A DNA stretch of 64,000 bases from Desulfomicrobium macestii (lineage in GTDB: Bacteria; Desulfobacterota; Desulfovibrionia; Desulfovibrionales; Desulfomicrobiaceae): contig NZ_JADBGG010000005.1 of assembly GCF_014873765.1 (NCBI RefSeq), positions 1-64,000 of the forward strand. The letters are read 5' to 3'. A program made the position numbers and the translations under genes. Shown here in pieces: positions 1 to 5,242 of the stretch; within the stretch, counting starts at the first letter, position 1; each line of letters starts with the position of its first letter. A model generated the notes under the pieces. That model did no database searches, was not told the origin of the DNA, and saw only the letters and a program-made list of their open reading frames with translations.

Positions 1-470
1 ACCGTAGGGGCGGCCCTGCGTGGCCGCCCTTCTTCGCCCTGCGTGACCACCCTGGCACCCCAGGTCCTGAAATCGGACCGGGGCGGAACGAAGAGGGCAG
101 GCACGCAGGCCTGCCCCTACGCCAATCGAACGTCATGATTTACCCATTTCCAACAATCCACACACCGTAGGGGCGGCCCTGCGTGGCCGCCCTTCTTCGC
201 CCTGCGTGGGCACCCTTCTTCGCCCTACGTGGCCACCCTGGCACCCCAGGTCCTGAAATCGGACAGGGGCGGAACGAAGAGGGCAGGCACGCAGGCCTGC
301 CCCTACAACGATCAAACGCCACGGTTTACCCATTTCCAACAATCCACACACCGTAGGGGCGGCCCTGCGTGGCCGCCTTTCTTCTGCCCTACGTGGCCGC
401 CCCTGCACCCCAGGTCCTGAAATCGGACAGGGGCGGAACGAAGAGGGCAGGCACGCAGGCCTGCCCCTAC
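1..470. repeat. Tandem array of REP-like palindromic pairs (BIME-like), three copies
   Basis: Three related units begin at about 1, 164 and 350. Each opens with a GTAG foot followed by a hairpin (stem GGGCGGCC, loop CTGCGT, at 8-29 in the first copy). Each closes with a second hairpin (stem GGGCAGGC, loop ACGCAG, at 95-116) and the inverted foot CTAC (117-120). The spacer after the first two units is also repeated. The middle unit has about 20 extra bases, a partial internal duplication. The loops are reverse complements while the stems differ in a paired manner, as in REP/BIME elements. No protein is supported here. The array may continue upstream of the window. Confidence 0.85.
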
Positions 471-643
471 AACGTGTCGTCTTGGCAAACACACCGCACC
501 CACACAACGTATCGCATTGCAAAACACCTCGCGCCACCACGCAACGATTTTCCAATTTTGCAAATCACCGCCAAAAACAAGACAAGCGCCCCTCTCTTTG
601 CTAGGTTCCGCGCAGTCAAACACCATGTCGCGGAGGAACACCC
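471..643 (+). other. Upstream region of the glutamine synthetase gene
   Basis: About 170 bases between the repeat array and the glutamine synthetase start. It is comparatively A/C-rich and carries no convincing reading frame. I looked for a sigma-54 type -24/-12 element and for a strong sigma-70 promoter and found neither. The only clear signal is the ribosome binding site GGAGGA at 632-637, just before the ATG at 644. Confidence 0.4.
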
Positions 644-1990
644 ATGCCCGAATTTCCCATCTTCAACTGCAAGAATTCCGACGATGTCGTCAAAGCCGTG
701 CGTGAACACAGGATCGAATTGGTCCAGTTCTGGTTCGTGGATGTGCTTGGAACCTTGAAAAGCTTCCAGGTCCTGCCCGGCGAACTGGAGGCGGCCTTCG
801 AGGAGGGCATGGGTTTCGACGGCTCCTCCCTGGAAGGATTTTGCAGAATTGAAGAAAGCGACATGATCGCCATCCCGGACCCGGCTACCTTTCAGCTGGT
901 CACCTGGCGGCAGACAGCCGCACCCATCGCGCGCATGTTCTGCGACATCCTGGAACCAAACGGCACCCCCTTTGCCGGAGACAGCCGTCATTGCCTGAAA
1001 CGGAACCTGCAGGCCGCGGCGAGCAAGGGCTATTCCTTCTATGTCGGCCCGGAACTGGAATTCTTTCTGTTCGAGAGCTCGACGTCTCCCAAGCCTCTCG
1101 ACGCGGGCGGCTATTTCGACGCCCCGCCCCTGGATCTGGCCGGGGACATCCGCCGCGAGATCATATCCTGCCTGCGTTCCATGGGCATTCCCGTTGAATA
1201 CGGGCATCACGAGGTCGCGCCCAGCCAGCACGAACTGGCCCTGCGCTACGCCGACGCCCTCAAGATGGCGGACACGGCCATCACCTACCGCGTGGTGGTC
1301 AAGGAAATCGCGCGCCAGAACGGTTGCTACGCCTCCTTCATGCCAAAGCCTCTATACGGCGAAAACGGCAGCGGCATGCACGTGCATCAGTCACTGTTCA
1401 AAAACGGACGCAATCTTTTCTACGATGCCGACGGAGATCATCACCTGAGCCGTGAGGCCAAGGCCTATATCGCGGGACTGCTCACGCACTGCAGGGAGTT
1501 CACGGCCATCACCAACCAGTGGGTCAACTCCTACAAGCGCCTCGTGCCCGGCTTCGAGGCCCCGACCAACATCGCATGGGCCCGGCGCAACCGCTCCACT
1601 CTGGTCCGCGTGCCCATGTACAAGCCCGGCAAGGAAGCCGCCACCCGTGTGGAGCTGCGATCTCCGGACCCGGCCTGCAACCCGTACCTGACCTTTGCCT
1701 GCATGCTCGCCGCCGGTCTCAAGGGCATCGAGGAAAACTACACGCTGCCGGCGCCCGTGGAAGAGGACATCTACGTCATGACGGCGGGCCAGCGCAGGGA
1801 CCGCGGCATCGGCAGCCTCCCCGGCAGCCTGGAGACGGCCCTCGAGGCCCTGGAAGGCAGCACCCTGATCCGCGAAGCCCTGGGCGAGCACATCTTCACC
1901 AAGTTCGTGGAAAACAAACACATCGAATGGGATCAGTACCGCTCGCAGGTGACGAATTACGAGTTGGAAAAGTACTTACCTCGCTTGTAA
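644..1990 (+). CDS. glnA: Type I glutamine synthetase, GSI-alpha-like
   Basis: Makes glutamine from glutamate, ammonia and ATP in the cytoplasm. The 448-residue protein has the GS beta-grasp motif GMGFDGSS, the metal and glutamate motif GPELEFFLF, the NGSGMHVHQSL loop, NRSTLVRVP, and the active-site ELRSPDPACNPYL. The C-terminal part reads EEDIYVMT and GIGSLPGSL, as in Bacillus-type GSI-alpha. The adenylylation tyrosine motif NLYDLP of GSI-beta enzymes is absent, so control by GlnE-type adenylylation is unlikely. The ATG has a GGAGGA ribosome site. A perfect hairpin follows the stop within five bases. A glutamate-polyamine ligase of the same fold is possible, but all core GS motifs are intact. 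Confidence 0.9.
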   Translation: MPEFPIFNCKNSDDVVKAVREHRIELVQFWFVDVLGTLKSFQVLPGELEAAFEEGMGFDGSSLEGFCRIEESDMIAIPDPATFQLVTWRQTAAPIARMFCDILEPNGTPFAGDSRHCLKRNLQAAASKGYSFYVGPELEFFLFESSTSPKPLDAGGYFDAPPLDLAGDIRREIISCLRSMGIPVEYGHHEVAPSQHELALRYADALKMADTAITYRVVVKEIARQNGCYASFMPKPLYGENGSGMHVHQSLFKNGRNLFYDADGDHHLSREAKAYIAGLLTHCREFTAITNQWVNSYKRLVPGFEAPTNIAWARRNRSTLVRVPMYKPGKEAATRVELRSPDPACNPYLTFACMLAAGLKGIEENYTLPAPVEEDIYVMTAGQRRDRGIGSLPGSLETALEALEGSTLIREALGEHIFTKFVENKHIEWDQYRSQVTNYELEKYLPRL

Positions 1991-1994
1991 GAAA

Positions 1995-2032
1995 ATGGGT
2001 CCTATAGGTCATATACGACCTATAGGACCCAT
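1995..2032. repeat. Perfect 16-bp inverted repeat with 6-base loop
   Basis: Left arm ATGGGTCCTATAGGTC (1995-2010), loop ATATAC, and a right arm that is its exact reverse complement (2017-2032). It lies between the glutamine synthetase stop and the next gene. No T-run follows, so it is not a standard intrinsic terminator, although it could stabilise the mRNA end. The arm contains the near-palindrome CCTATAGG, which recurs inside the next gene at about 2408-2435. Confidence 0.9.
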
Positions 2033-2049
2033 AGTAAGAATGCTGCGCC

Positions 2050-2619
2050 ATGACGCAGCACTTTATTTCCAAACACGGCGCCTACGAAGAGCTTCTTTCC
2101 TACCGCAAGGCTGTCATTGTCTATGACGGCACGGTGTGCTTCTGTGAGCGGTTCATGCACAGGCGGGACCGCACCGTGGACCAGATGGTCCAAGCGGCGC
2201 GGTCGGGCAAGCAGAACATCATCGAAGGCTGCATGGCCTCGGCGACTTCGAAGAAAAGCGAGATCAAGCTGATCAATGTTGCCCGCGCCAGCCTGGAAGA
2301 ACTGCTCGAAGACTACCGCGACTACTTGCGCATACGCGGACAAACGCTCTGGCATAAGTCCAGCGAACAGGCCCTGTACGTCCGCAAACTCGGCAGCCAA
2401 AAAAATACGTCCTATGAGACCTATAGGTCCTATATTCAAACCCGCCCGCCCGAAACCGTCGCCAACATCCTCGTCTGCCTCATCCACCAGACCAACTACC
2501 TGCTCGACCGCCAAATCAGGCAGCTCGAAAAAGCCTTCGTCGAAGACGGGGGCCTGTCCGAACGCATGACCCGCGCCCGTCTCAAGAACCGCATTGGCCA
2601 ATCCGAAAACGGCTTTTAA
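2050..2619 (+). CDS. Four-helix-bundle protein of the 23S-rRNA intervening-sequence/Avd-like superfamily
   Basis: A 189-residue helical protein. Its core (QMVQAARSGKQNIIEG, then NVARASLEELLEDYRDYLR) matches what I know of the four-helix-bundle family found in 23S rRNA intervening sequences, related to the Avd proteins of diversity-generating retroelements. The C-terminal part has the motif TRPPETVANIL and an NYLLD helix. In the middle, residues near 120-130 read SYETYRSY, encoded by CCTATAGG-type repeat DNA. No reverse transcriptase or variable repeat is nearby, so it is not a retroelement here. There is no clear ribosome site, and the start lies 18 bases after the inverted repeat. Biological role unknown. 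Confidence 0.75.
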   Translation: MTQHFISKHGAYEELLSYRKAVIVYDGTVCFCERFMHRRDRTVDQMVQAARSGKQNIIEGCMASATSKKSEIKLINVARASLEELLEDYRDYLRIRGQTLWHKSSEQALYVRKLGSQKNTSYETYRSYIQTRPPETVANILVCLIHQTNYLLDRQIRQLEKAFVEDGGLSERMTRARLKNRIGQSENGF

Positions 2620-2634
2620 CCCGTCCTGCGGACC

Positions 2635-2785
2635 AAATGGTCCGACCTTTTCCCTCTTTTTCCACCAACCGGGTTGACACCTGAGCCTTACTTGGGCAGA
2701 AAGGTCCTACCATTTGCGAGTAAAAAGCTCTTCAACGCCATTTTTTACCCGTTTTTGCGCAAAATATCACCAAAAGGTACTACCA
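2635..2785 (+). promoter_or_regulatory. Promoter region with three FadR/GntR-type operator-like sites
   Basis: The pattern GGT-NNN-ACC occurs three times before the regulator gene: GGTCCGACC at 2639-2647, GGTCCTACC at 2703-2711 and GGTACTACC at 2776-2784. The first two are flanked by AAAT and CTTT in opposite orientation, giving related sites on opposite strands. The third overlaps the ribosome binding region. A TTGACA -35 box lies at 2674-2679, with only a weak -10 match. TGGT-NNN-ACCA is the usual half-site arrangement for FadR-family regulators, so autoregulation of the gene at 2786 is a reasonable inference. Confidence 0.65.
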
Positions 2786-3550
2786 ATGACCACCTCTGAA
2801 CCCCTCTTCTTTCCGGCCAAGGCCGGACGCGCCAGCGAAGACGTCGCTTTGCAGATCGAAGCTGCCATCCTGGCCGGGCGACTGGCGCCCGAAGAGCGCC
2901 TGCCCAGCGAACGCGAGATGCAGCAACAGTTCGGCACCGGACGCGGCGCAATCCGCGAGGCCCTGCGGGCGCTCAAGCAAAAAGGGCTCCTGGACATCCG
3001 CAAGGGAGTCAAGGGCGGAGCCTATGTGTGCAAGGTCGGCATGGTCAGCATCGGGGAGTCCTTGGCCCTCTTTCTCAAGCAGCACGATGTCGCGCCTTCG
3101 GCCCTCATCGAATTTCGCGAGAGCGTGGATCAGACCCTGGTCCTGCTGGCCATTGCCCGGGGCTCGGCCGAAGCCAAGCGGACCCTGGTGGCCATGGCCG
3201 AAGAGTTCGAGGCCTGCCTGCGGCAGGACGAGCACGACGCCGACAGGATCGGGCATCTGGACCGGGACCTGAACCTGACTCTGGCCGGCATGGCCGCCAA
3301 CCCGATTTTCGAGTGGATCATGCAGGCGCTGCAACGCGGCTTCAGCTCCCATGACTACACCCTTTACGACACGCCAATGTACCGCGAGCGCACCGCCGCC
3401 AACTGGGCCGAGACCGCCCGCGCCATTGCTGAAAACGACCCCCTGCGCGCCAGAAGCCTCATCGGCTACCATTACGCGATGCTCAGGTCCTGCCTGAACG
3501 AGCGCGCAGCGGCGTCTTCCTCCCCCCGTGTTTCGCCCGACGATTCCTAA
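2786..3550 (+). CDS. FadR-subfamily GntR transcriptional regulator
   Basis: The N-terminal winged helix includes RLPSEREMQQQFGTGRGAIR, typical of GntR proteins. The C-terminal part (residues about 95-235) is an all-helical FCD ligand-binding domain with metal-binding-type residues (HLDRDLN and a later GYHYAML). Likely a repressor or activator of the choline genes that follow 33 bases downstream. I prefer the ATG at 2786 (254 residues) over an in-frame TTG at 2714, because the longer form would translate across two operator-like sites and its extra N-terminus is unlike the family. Most proteobacterial choline clusters use the TetR regulator BetI, so a FadR-type regulator is a variation. The ligand is unknown. 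Confidence 0.85.
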   Translation: MTTSEPLFFPAKAGRASEDVALQIEAAILAGRLAPEERLPSEREMQQQFGTGRGAIREALRALKQKGLLDIRKGVKGGAYVCKVGMVSIGESLALFLKQHDVAPSALIEFRESVDQTLVLLAIARGSAEAKRTLVAMAEEFEACLRQDEHDADRIGHLDRDLNLTLAGMAANPIFEWIMQALQRGFSSHDYTLYDTPMYRERTAANWAETARAIAENDPLRARSLIGYHYAMLRSCLNERAAASSSPRVSPDDS

Positions 3551-3583
3551 AGCGGGGCAACCCTCATCTTATAAGGATATTAC

Positions 3584-5242
3584 ATGAAGTTCTATGATTA
3601 CATCATTGTCGGTGGCGGTTCCGCCGGCAGCGTCCTGGCCAACCGTTTGAGCGCCAATCCCAAAACCAGCGTCCTGGTCCTCGAAGCGGGCCTGCCCGAC
3701 TTTCGCCTTGATTTCCGCATCCACATGCCCGCTGCCCTGACCTATCCCCTGGCCGGAAAGACCTACAACTGGTGGTACGAATCCGAGCCGGAACCGCACA
3801 TGCACAACCGGCGCATCTATCAGCCGCGCGGCAAGGTGCTCGGCGGGTCAAGCTGCATCAACGGCATGATCCACATTCGCGGCAATGCCATGGACTTCGA
3901 AAAATGGGCGCGCGAAAAGGGCCTTGAGAACTGGGATTACGCCCGCTGCCTGCCCTACTTCAAGCGCTTCGAATACCGGCTCAAGGGCACGGACGAATAT
4001 CAGGGCGGCGCGGGCCCCCTGTATCTGACCAGCCCGGATTGCGACAACCCGCTCTTCGACGCCTTTTTCCAGGCCGTGCAGGAAGCCGGGTATCCTCTGA
4101 CCGACGTCAATGGCTACCAGCAGGAAGGCTTCGGCAAGTTCGACCGCACCACCTATCGCGGCCGACGCTGGAACGCCGCCAGGGCCTACGTCCATCCCGT
4201 CAAGAGCAGGCGCAATCTGACCGTCAAGTGCAAGGCCACGGCCCATCGCATCCTCTTTGAAGGCACCCGCGCCGTGGGCGTCGAATACGAGCGCCTGGGC
4301 CGCATGCACCGCGTCAACGGCGGTGAGATCATCAGCTGCGGCGGGGCCATCAATTCCCCGCAGCTCCTGCAGCTCTCCGGCATCGGCAACGGGGCTCAGC
4401 TGCGCGAACTGGGCATCCCCGTGGTCCACGACCTGCCCGGCGTTGGCGAGAACCTGCAGGACCACCTGGAGCTCTATGTGCAGTACGCCTGCACCAAGCC
4501 CGTCAGCATGTTCCCGGCCCTCCAGTGGTGGAATCAACCCTGGATCGGCCTGAAATGGCTCTTCGGCCAGACCGGCGAGGCGGCCACCAACCATTTCGAG
4601 GCCGGCGGCTTCATTCGCGGCAACGATCAGGTCGAATACCCGAACATCCAGTATCACTTCCTGCCCATCGCCATCCGCTACGACGGCTCATCTCCCAACG
4701 AGGGCCATGGCTATCAGGTTCACGTCGGACCCATGAACACCGACGTGCGCGGCCGTGTGAAGATCAAAAGCGCTGATCCCAAGGAATACCCGTCCATCCT
4801 GTTCAACTACCTGTCCACGGAACAGGAGCGCAAAGACTGGGTCGACGCCATCCGCCTGACCCGCAAGATCATGACCCAGCCCGCCTTCGACAGCTTGCGC
4901 GGACGGGAACTGGCTCCGGGCGAGGACGTACAGACCGACGAGGAGATCCTCGATTTCGTGGCCCGCGAAGGCGAGAGCGCCTATCATCCGAGCTGCACCT
5001 GCAAGATGGGCTACGATGACATGGCCGTGGTCGACAACGAGCTGCGCGTACATGGCGTGCAGGGACTGCGCGTGGTCGACGCCTCAATCATGCCCTACGT
5101 GACCAACGGCAACATTTACGCCCCGGTGATGATGATCGCCGAGAAGGCGGCGGACATGATCCTCGGCAACACGCCGCTGGCGCCCGACACCGCCCCCTTC
5201 TACCGCCACGGAGGCAAGGCCTCGGCCAAGGAGAAGAAATGA
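3584..5242 (+). CDS. betA: Choline dehydrogenase (GMC oxidoreductase)
   Basis: FAD enzyme oxidising choline to betaine aldehyde, passing electrons to the respiratory chain. The 552-residue protein starts with the dinucleotide fold IIVGGGSAGSVLA and ends the FAD strand with VLVLEAG. It has GKVLGGSSCINGM and the PROSITE-like segment GGAINSPQLLQLSGIG. The catalytic His region is YHPSCTCKMGYD, and the C-terminal segment GNIYAPVMMIAEKAADMI is of the form I recall from Gram-positive BetA proteins. Ribosome site AAGGA precedes the ATG. The stop overlaps the BetB start by four bases (ATGA), implying coupled translation. Confidence 0.9.
   Translation: MKFYDYIIVGGGSAGSVLANRLSANPKTSVLVLEAGLPDFRLDFRIHMPAALTYPLAGKTYNWWYESEPEPHMHNRRIYQPRGKVLGGSSCINGMIHIRGNAMDFEKWAREKGLENWDYARCLPYFKRFEYRLKGTDEYQGGAGPLYLTSPDCDNPLFDAFFQAVQEAGYPLTDVNGYQQEGFGKFDRTTYRGRRWNAARAYVHPVKSRRNLTVKCKATAHRILFEGTRAVGVEYERLGRMHRVNGGEIISCGGAINSPQLLQLSGIGNGAQLRELGIPVVHDLPGVGENLQDHLELYVQYACTKPVSMFPALQWWNQPWIGLKWLFGQTGEAATNHFEAGGFIRGNDQVEYPNIQYHFLPIAIRYDGSSPNEGHGYQVHVGPMNTDVRGRVKIKSADPKEYPSILFNYLSTEQERKDWVDAIRLTRKIMTQPAFDSLRGRELAPGEDVQTDEEILDFVAREGESAYHPSCTCKMGYDDMAVVDNELRVHGVQGLRVVDASIMPYVTNGNIYAPVMMIAEKAADMILGNTPLAPDTAPFYRHGGKASAKEKK

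Follow-up and report, generated by a model that had tools for sequence, protein, structure and literature searches.

In REP/REPIN systems a protein gene (RAYT) lies beside its own palindromic repeat, solitary copies of which are dispersed, and the cyanobacterial STRRs are a family of short tandem repeats. To our knowledge, the proteins annotated as 'four helix bundle' or 'S23 ribosomal protein' have no established job outside rRNA. The intervening sequence (IVS) of the Coxiella 23S rRNA carries an S23p ORF and 28-bp terminal inverted repeats, is excised by RNase III, occurs sporadically and has been called selfish (PMC4990558).

Further short repeats have been described on their own. Xanthomonas campestris has 186 patterns of GGGAATC and 70 convergent pairs, and Nostoc has GGGGA(C/T)T (PMC4692102); Beggiatoaceae have TAACTGA, and MacGregor suggested in 2015 that a repeat-binding protein might be the mobile element (PMC4679880); Geobacter metallireducens has GGACCGG heptamers in 49 places and GTTGCTYN octamers on opposite strands (PMC2700814), and some of the multicopy repeats of G. 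bemidjiensis lie inside genes without causing a frameshift (PMC2996986). In the portions of these papers considered here, no four-helix protein is named for such orphan repeats, and no link between the four-helix family and short tandem repeats emerged from searches of the open-licence literature.

The locus that concerns us lies in a 64-kb stretch of DNA from Desulfomicrobium macestii (64,000 nucleotides; hereafter the window). It is one case of a wide pattern, in which genes of the four-helix family lie beside or between a short repeat type of their own, and this suggests that the family may help to spread such repeats in bacterial genomes. Like the IVS (PMC4990558), the present loci combine this protein fold family with a stem of terminal inverted repeats whose loop holds the ORF; unlike the IVS, the present genes lie outside rRNA wherever neighbours were seen, and their stems consist of arrayed tandem units of 7-9 bp, which are not the same in every clade. 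The window gene departs further in that it has an upstream palindrome and an internal tract instead of two flanking arms, with no downstream array of its unit. Dispersed palindromes linked to a protein gene, as in REP/RAYT systems, are found in the window genus, but the window protein matches four-helix families only, with no tyrosine (HUH) transposase match, and the repeats are short tandem units that can lie inside the gene. The orphan repeats of Xanthomonas/Nostoc, Beggiatoaceae and Geobacter (7 or 8 nt), like those of G. bemidjiensis and the STRRs, are likewise short tandem arrays with some inverted pairs, mostly intergenic and sometimes intragenic. The simplest account would be an element that works like REP/RAYT and the IVS but, with no HUH transposase match and a position outside rRNA, belongs to neither.

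The window locus

The features of the locus, in window coordinates, are as follows.

1995-2032, no strand: palindromic array of a 9-bp unit, 38 bp, with a perfect 16-bp stem and a 6-nt loop
2041-2060, plus strand: second hairpin (-11.3 kcal/mol); the stem has 7 bp and the loop contains the ATG start codon (2050)
2050-2619, plus strand: gene for a four-helix-bundle protein with suffix domain (189 aa), S23/23S-rRNA-IVP family
2134-2307, plus strand: region matching the TIGR02436 profile; helices from the AlphaFold2 model
2410-2433, plus strand: in-frame array copy encoding SYETYRSY, which the model places in the helix 3-helix 4 linker
2449-2592, plus strand: TIGR04258 'suffix', in the model the last long bundle helix and an extra C-terminal helix

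The gene is flanked by a glutamine synthetase gene on one side and, on the other, by a GntR/FCD regulator gene followed by GMC oxidoreductase and aldehyde dehydrogenase genes; the palindrome stands between the four-helix gene and the stop codon of glutamine synthetase. The original prediction placed a perfect inverted repeat just before the gene, and the arms, ATGGGTCCTATAGGTC-ATATAC-GACCTATAGGACCCAT, do pair exactly at all 16 positions, with the small correction that arms and 6-nt loop together make up the 38 bp. No other exact stem of at least 12 bp with a loop of at most 8 occurs in the 64 kb. Folded as RNA, the palindrome reaches -30.1 kcal/mol (z -9.3), and its minus strand passes a simple terminator scan. 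Pairing is kept across seven species/sequences, with 95.5% of cells paired and both partners altered in two of the pairs; as many altered pairs arise in 70/500 shuffles, and the covariation score is reached in 3/500, so that covariation lends the pairing modest support. The 8-mer CCTATAGG occurs at three sites in the window, standing in 9-bp register, against 0.10 expected, and none of 100 shuffles reaches three.

The hairpin around the start codon suggests translational control of the four-helix gene; by eye, it is also present in a second genome (G001). Across window positions 1-4000, we found neither an rRNA match nor a known RNA family, a single sub-threshold miRNA match (E 0.099) being taken as chance. 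The window also contains unrelated, longer direct repeats at 13-474 (186 nt twice, 93% identical, and 89 nt three times), and GC-rich sequence resembling them fills the orthologous site of one dispersed palindrome in another genome (G005).

The protein scores 29.8 bits against TIGR02436 'four helix bundle protein' (cutoff 24) and 83.1 bits against TIGR04258 'four helix bundle suffix' (cutoff 40), but its 27.3 bits against Pfam PF05635 (23S_rRNA_IVP) fall below the gathering score of 33.8, so that membership of the S23-IVP family follows from the scores of one library and not the other. The AlphaFold2 model (pLDDT 91.1) superposes on 2GSC over residues 8-160 (VIA-align Z 16.3, rmsd 1.7, 113 residues) and on 2RLD with Z 14.1, and the predicted fold is a four-helix bundle like these two. 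Foldseek found no match to the model at E<=0.001, the best being 2GSC at 0.024. Note that VIA-align Z scores of 10-13 between helical bundles may reflect a common arrangement alone: DGR Avd structures (4DWL, 8UBE, 8UB7) align with Z 11.6-12.1, rmsd 2.4-2.5 over 105-107 residues, a range (10-12) that unrelated helical bundles reach too. The Avd profile is not among the matches of the window protein at E 0.001, and a relative without the suffix (L256) scores 40.8 bits against a cutoff of 80. No nuclease, transposase or reverse transcriptase family in Pfam or NCBIfam matches the window protein, and searches of phage and defence families gave nothing convincing, with one weak PHROG match (E 0.012) in a search with two proteins and none in a search with three. 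Two of six family members scanned, the TD-class suffix proteins of L064 and L080, end in a PF01396 zinc ribbon of the DNA-binding topoisomerase type, a fusion that hints at DNA as the target.

Inside the gene, the original prediction located the motif of the palindrome in DNA encoding SYETYRSY. It is present in frame at 2410-2433 (TCC TAT GAG ACC TAT AGG TCC TAT), including an exact match to GACCTATAGGTC at 2418-2429. The repeat, with a unit of three codons, is tolerated in frame, and relatives have it at the corresponding linker; some of the match may nevertheless be protein-driven, because the tract overlies a segment conserved at the protein level, in which relatives of this class (SY) that lack the repeat keep Y-E-x-[YF]-[RK]. 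In a further genome (G013) the in-gene copy is itself palindromic (15/17). The suggestion that the unit has a role in the protein's putative DNA or RNA target is plausible.

Repeat arrays at suffix genes

Relatives with the suffix domain come from many phyla among the best 80 of 573 confirmed stretches. In many of them, an inverted array in frame makes up the linker that joins helix 3 to helix 4; that of L101, for example, consists of four GGAC-containing units followed by four inverted ones. Arrays with 9-bp period reach 5.50 per kb in this linker (45/80 loci), compared with 1.20 per kb within 300 bp upstream (21/80), 1.72 per kb within 300 bp downstream (31/80) and a background of 0.17-0.18 per kb at 300-600 bp and 0.17 and 0.27 in the two protein domains, an enrichment of about 30-fold in the linker and 7-10-fold in the near flanks, for the 80 of 88 suffix loci that had the necessary landmarks (8 lacked them). 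In a de novo search with no motif assumed, at least two 6-mer pairs spaced by 9 bp occur in 59 of the 145 loci (out of 168) that entered these tests, as against 0/725 shuffles, and with flanks alone in 44/145 loci near the gene, 0/100 far flanks and 0/151 window segments.

Within linkers the arrays are inverted, with GGA prevailing over TCC in the left half (45:10) and TCC over GGA in the right (54:20). Flanks of suffix loci are inverted to each other no more often than they are direct (39 inverted and 46 direct of 134, compared with 490/2885 between loci). In one class (ST), serine codons in the linker are TCC in 95 of 163 cases but in 53 of 272 elsewhere in the same genes, a synonymous choice that shows a DNA-level constraint on the linker. 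The SD class has no such bias (11/86 in the linker, 43/310 elsewhere), since its unit leaves that base free.

The unit itself is not the same everywhere. Its core is ATAGGA in the window and ATGGGA, GTGGAC, ATGGAC, GTCNGA, CACGGAC (with 10-bp period), AAGGAC or AGGGAC in other clades, and a single universal motif for all suffix loci is ruled out. The expectation that homologous loci would share the motif thus survives in part: relatives have arrays in the same linker and flank places, but other clades carry other units there. For the same reason, absence of the motif from homologous loci, which had been named as grounds for refutation, would mislead. On a protein tree built without the linker, unit class changes 13 times, compared with a shuffled mean of 42.8 (0/200 shuffles as low; 84 of 139 rows labelled, 55 without a class label), although the linker contributes to the class label and the contrast is inflated by near relatives. 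With flank-only labels and one row per 80% identity cluster (29 rows), there are 10 changes versus 14.1, again with 0/200 shuffles as low, and single classes are weak on this deduplicated tree (SH is matched in 36/500 shuffles, K in 41). Unit type follows the protein tree in part.

Dispersal and turnover in the genus

In the window's own genome, the bare 8-mer is a poor marker, because it is rarer (26 sites) than its reversed control word (112 sites), and on its own it was set aside as uninformative. By eye, 16 of the 26 sites lie within arrays of the 9-bp unit and 10 are singletons. The array 20-mer, allowing up to three mismatches, finds 21 + 27 = 48 matches as against 0 + 0 for its reversed control; these counts overlap, with several matches per element and both strands included. 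Across 22 family genomes, in each of which the reversed control gives 0-2 matches, those with a full-length SY-type gene have 48 (G000), 56 (G001), 28 (G011) and 29 (G013). G005 has 19, with a gene that seems frameshifted in its first part (open frame of 165 aa) and was not counted as intact; two genomes with a broken gene remnant have 7 (G002) and 34 (G012); G015, a draft, has 36 with no suffix gene detected; the remaining 14 have 0-6 each.

The dispersed elements are palindromes: across 43 distinct elements, pairing with the own arm averages 13.3/17 and with swapped arms 7.7, the former value being inflated in that centres were picked for best pairing and elements below 9/17 left out. At orthologous sites they are shared, altered in 9-bp steps or absent, which bears out the idea of a short repeat that spreads or expands at such loci: the repeat is dispersed, and its copies differ in presence or absence and in length, by entire 9-bp units. 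Set against MITEs, these are palindromic elements with presence/absence differences and without target duplication in the orthologous-site alignments. None of the orthologous sites aligned has a clean insertion with target duplication, the element being present, altered or replaced by unrelated sequence. Clean empty sites were sought and not obtained; for the window gene, G003, G007 and G010 match the left flank only.

One event connects the palindrome with the in-gene tract directly. The locus has lost about 400 bp in G002 and G012, window positions ~1841-2029/2033 being joined to 2418-2800 across a junction with a 13-17-bp match on both sides, and both genomes thereby lack about 400 bp of the gene (window equivalents ~2029-2418). 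Since the ends of the deletion fall within the palindrome and the tract, recombination between the two seems to have taken place in a sister lineage, probably on a single occasion.

Two unusual arrangements were seen by eye: a larger gene-free element with two facing arrays of 9-bp units, like a non-autonomous cassette (L006, ~2505-2625), and an SY palindrome inside a tandemly duplicated unit of ~76 bp (L001, 2370-2530). ORF calling around the dispersed elements was marred by spurious long ORFs.

Outside the window genus SY arrays are few. A genome holding an ATGGGA (SH)-type gene (G265) has 99 overlapping matches to the SH pattern and 0 to its control; a single base distinguishes the SY unit from the SH unit, so that each pattern also picks up the other. 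The GTGGAC pattern gives 26 matches versus 2 for the control in G003, where the places listed lie away from its genes; among the matches listed, counts for this pattern are near control in many genomes and many of the matches in G166, G252, G326 and G389 fall at the gene itself. Genome-wide dispersal thus depends on lineage and is not general, and a clean class-by-genome matrix was not found.

Plain genes and the possible origin of the arrays

As an intended negative control, we fetched 30 loci with plain four-helix genes (TIGR02436 without the suffix), taken from many more matches. As an array-free control they failed, and instead gave the main surprise. Arrays of 9 bp, by 6-mer pairs, occur at 2/30, but within 250 bp of the gene 16/30 have 7-bp arrays and 2/30 have 8-bp arrays, compared with 1/30 and 0/30 far from it (thresholds: 6-mer pairs; 80% self-match over three units for plain genes, 70% for suffix genes). 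With inversion defined by at least three shared 9-mers, the upstream flank matches the reverse complement of the downstream flank at 23/30 loci and the direct sequence at 6/30, versus 49/870 between loci. L279, for instance, has AAAGGTT units before the gene and CCTTTAA units after it, and L256 has CGTAAAT before and ATTTACG after, whereas the flanks of L272 are not inverted by the 9-mer test. Units differ between loci, although the flanks of one locus match each other. Where the flanks are inverted, the plain gene is enclosed by a stem as its loop, which is how the 23S rRNA IVS with its S23 ORF is arranged.

Named plasmid loci (23, 21 of them cyanobacterial) repeat this picture, with nearby arrays of 7 bp at 13, 8 bp at 3 and 9 bp at 2, none of 23 far away, and flanks inverted at 16/23 and direct at 4/23; the set derives from 30 listed matches (of 42 records) without H8, H15, H17 and H20-H23, mostly apparent near-copies, and keeps the near relatives L286/L296 and L299/L300. 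Plain genes have unrelated neighbours: in pNe_5 these are nrd genes of opposite strand, elsewhere cas6 and cas4, or cas10 and cmr3. The GGGAGTA arrays that flank the pNe_5 gene are absent from the first 50 kb of that plasmid. Unit length follows architecture in most array-bearing loci examined, 7 or 8 bp at plain and 9 bp at suffix genes, with exceptions: the related plain genes L299 and L300 carry 9-bp arrays (self-match 0.93 and 0.85), so that length is not strictly set by the suffix. Among plain genes, the split between 7 and 8 bp follows the protein tree weakly (5 changes versus 7.4, with 9-10/500 shuffles as low; L276 and L280 are left out of this tree). In a side observation, the downstream flank of L258 has 7-bp arrays and a separate 9-bp array of AGGCCTTAG; in another, three plain genes on cyanobacterial plasmids (L287, L289, L291) sit between CRISPR genes, twice cas6/cas4 and once cas10/cmr3.

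How might these arrangements have come about? We think it somewhat more likely than not that the window locus is one member of a family of selfish elements, each made up of a protein and its cognate repeat. In such an element the gene for a small four-helix-bundle protein of the S23/IVP/Avd fold has arrays on one side or on both, built from a short tandem unit that is mostly 7 or 8 bp long at plain genes and 9 bp (10 in one class) at suffix genes. Most likely, the protein would recognise its own unit, as a hairpin or as an array, and recognition would keep and spread arrays and gene in the way that RAYT transposases keep and spread REP palindromes, with solitary arrays as non-autonomous offspring. 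At plain genes the two arrays are usually inverted and enclose the gene in a stem-loop like that of the 23S rRNA IVS, and operon transcripts containing the insert could be trimmed by RNase III. At suffix genes a unit of 9 bp, being three codons, would explain why the helix 3-helix 4 linker within the gene can hold an array as well. The data show the anatomy, the enrichment, a unit type that partly goes with protein clade, dispersal in some genomes, changes of unit number and a deletion that fuses the two tracts; binding, the copying mechanism and RNase III trimming are inferred from these.

Three other explanations have to be set against this one. If the protein were a regulator, and not selfish, the arrays could be its operators or RNA sites and the dispersed arrays its regulon; this autoregulatory scheme is the strongest of the rivals, yet we consider it unlikely. 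It gains from the closeness of arrays to the gene, from their partial match to protein clade, from a window palindrome and second hairpin that flank the start codon, and from the terminator-like T-runs in which some orthologous dispersed arrays end. At the same time, array position varies by clade between upstream, linker, N-terminus and downstream, plain genes sit between unrelated neighbours (nrd, cas and cmr genes), and dispersed sites differ between close relatives, all of which argue against regulation. The T-runs, seen at several orthologous elements, would also fit a family of bidirectional terminators in this genus, with the SYETYRSY match a protein-level coincidence on a conserved segment. 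The terminator scan passed by the minus strand, the kept pairing with its two pairs changed on both sides in seven sequences, and the Y-E-x-[YF]-[RK] of relatives without the repeat point the same way, but a shared stem sequence with 9-bp period throughout the genome is not what ordinary terminators would show, linkers of other clades contain inverted arrays in frame although they are not conserved, and the in-gene copy of G013 is palindromic; we regard this explanation as very improbable.

Only slightly better placed, and still improbable in our judgement, is a neutral origin, in which slippage and recombination produce repeats that a dispensable and frequently transferred gene family happens to tolerate nearby, with no part for the protein. 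The gene is indeed patchy (of 395 phylum genomes, 52 have a TIGR04258 match), arrays do vary in unit number, and a deletion between tracts has happened in G002 and G012. What such an origin does not lead one to expect is a specific period (9 at suffix genes, 7 or 8 at most plain genes with arrays), flanks that match each other at one plain locus though units differ between loci, a unit class that clusters on the protein tree, and far flanks that are nearly clean.

The selfish protein-plus-repeat reading can be extended, more tentatively, in a direction that we judge less likely to be right than wrong. The S23/four-helix family might be the agent behind bacterial short tandem repeat families at large, each protein recognising its own 7-, 8- or 9-bp unit, with length set mainly by architecture, the suffix helix adding about two bases. 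Gene and arrays together would then be a mobile element of a new, stem-loop class that does without a classical transposase; the 23S rRNA IVS would be one special site of it, and the dispersed STRR, GGGAATC and TAACTGA-type arrays its non-autonomous copies. The heptamers and similar short repeats of cyanobacteria, Xanthomonas, Geobacter and Beggiatoa have been described without a cause, and the selfish-element reading could explain them; linking orphan repeats to the four-helix family gives each a testable partner, would make 23S rRNA intervening sequences one instance of something more general, and supplies naturally occurring proteins that are each matched to a different short DNA unit, so that a recognition code might be read from them. 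The closest structural match to the window protein, 2GSC, is XCC0516, a plain four-helix protein of Xanthomonas campestris.
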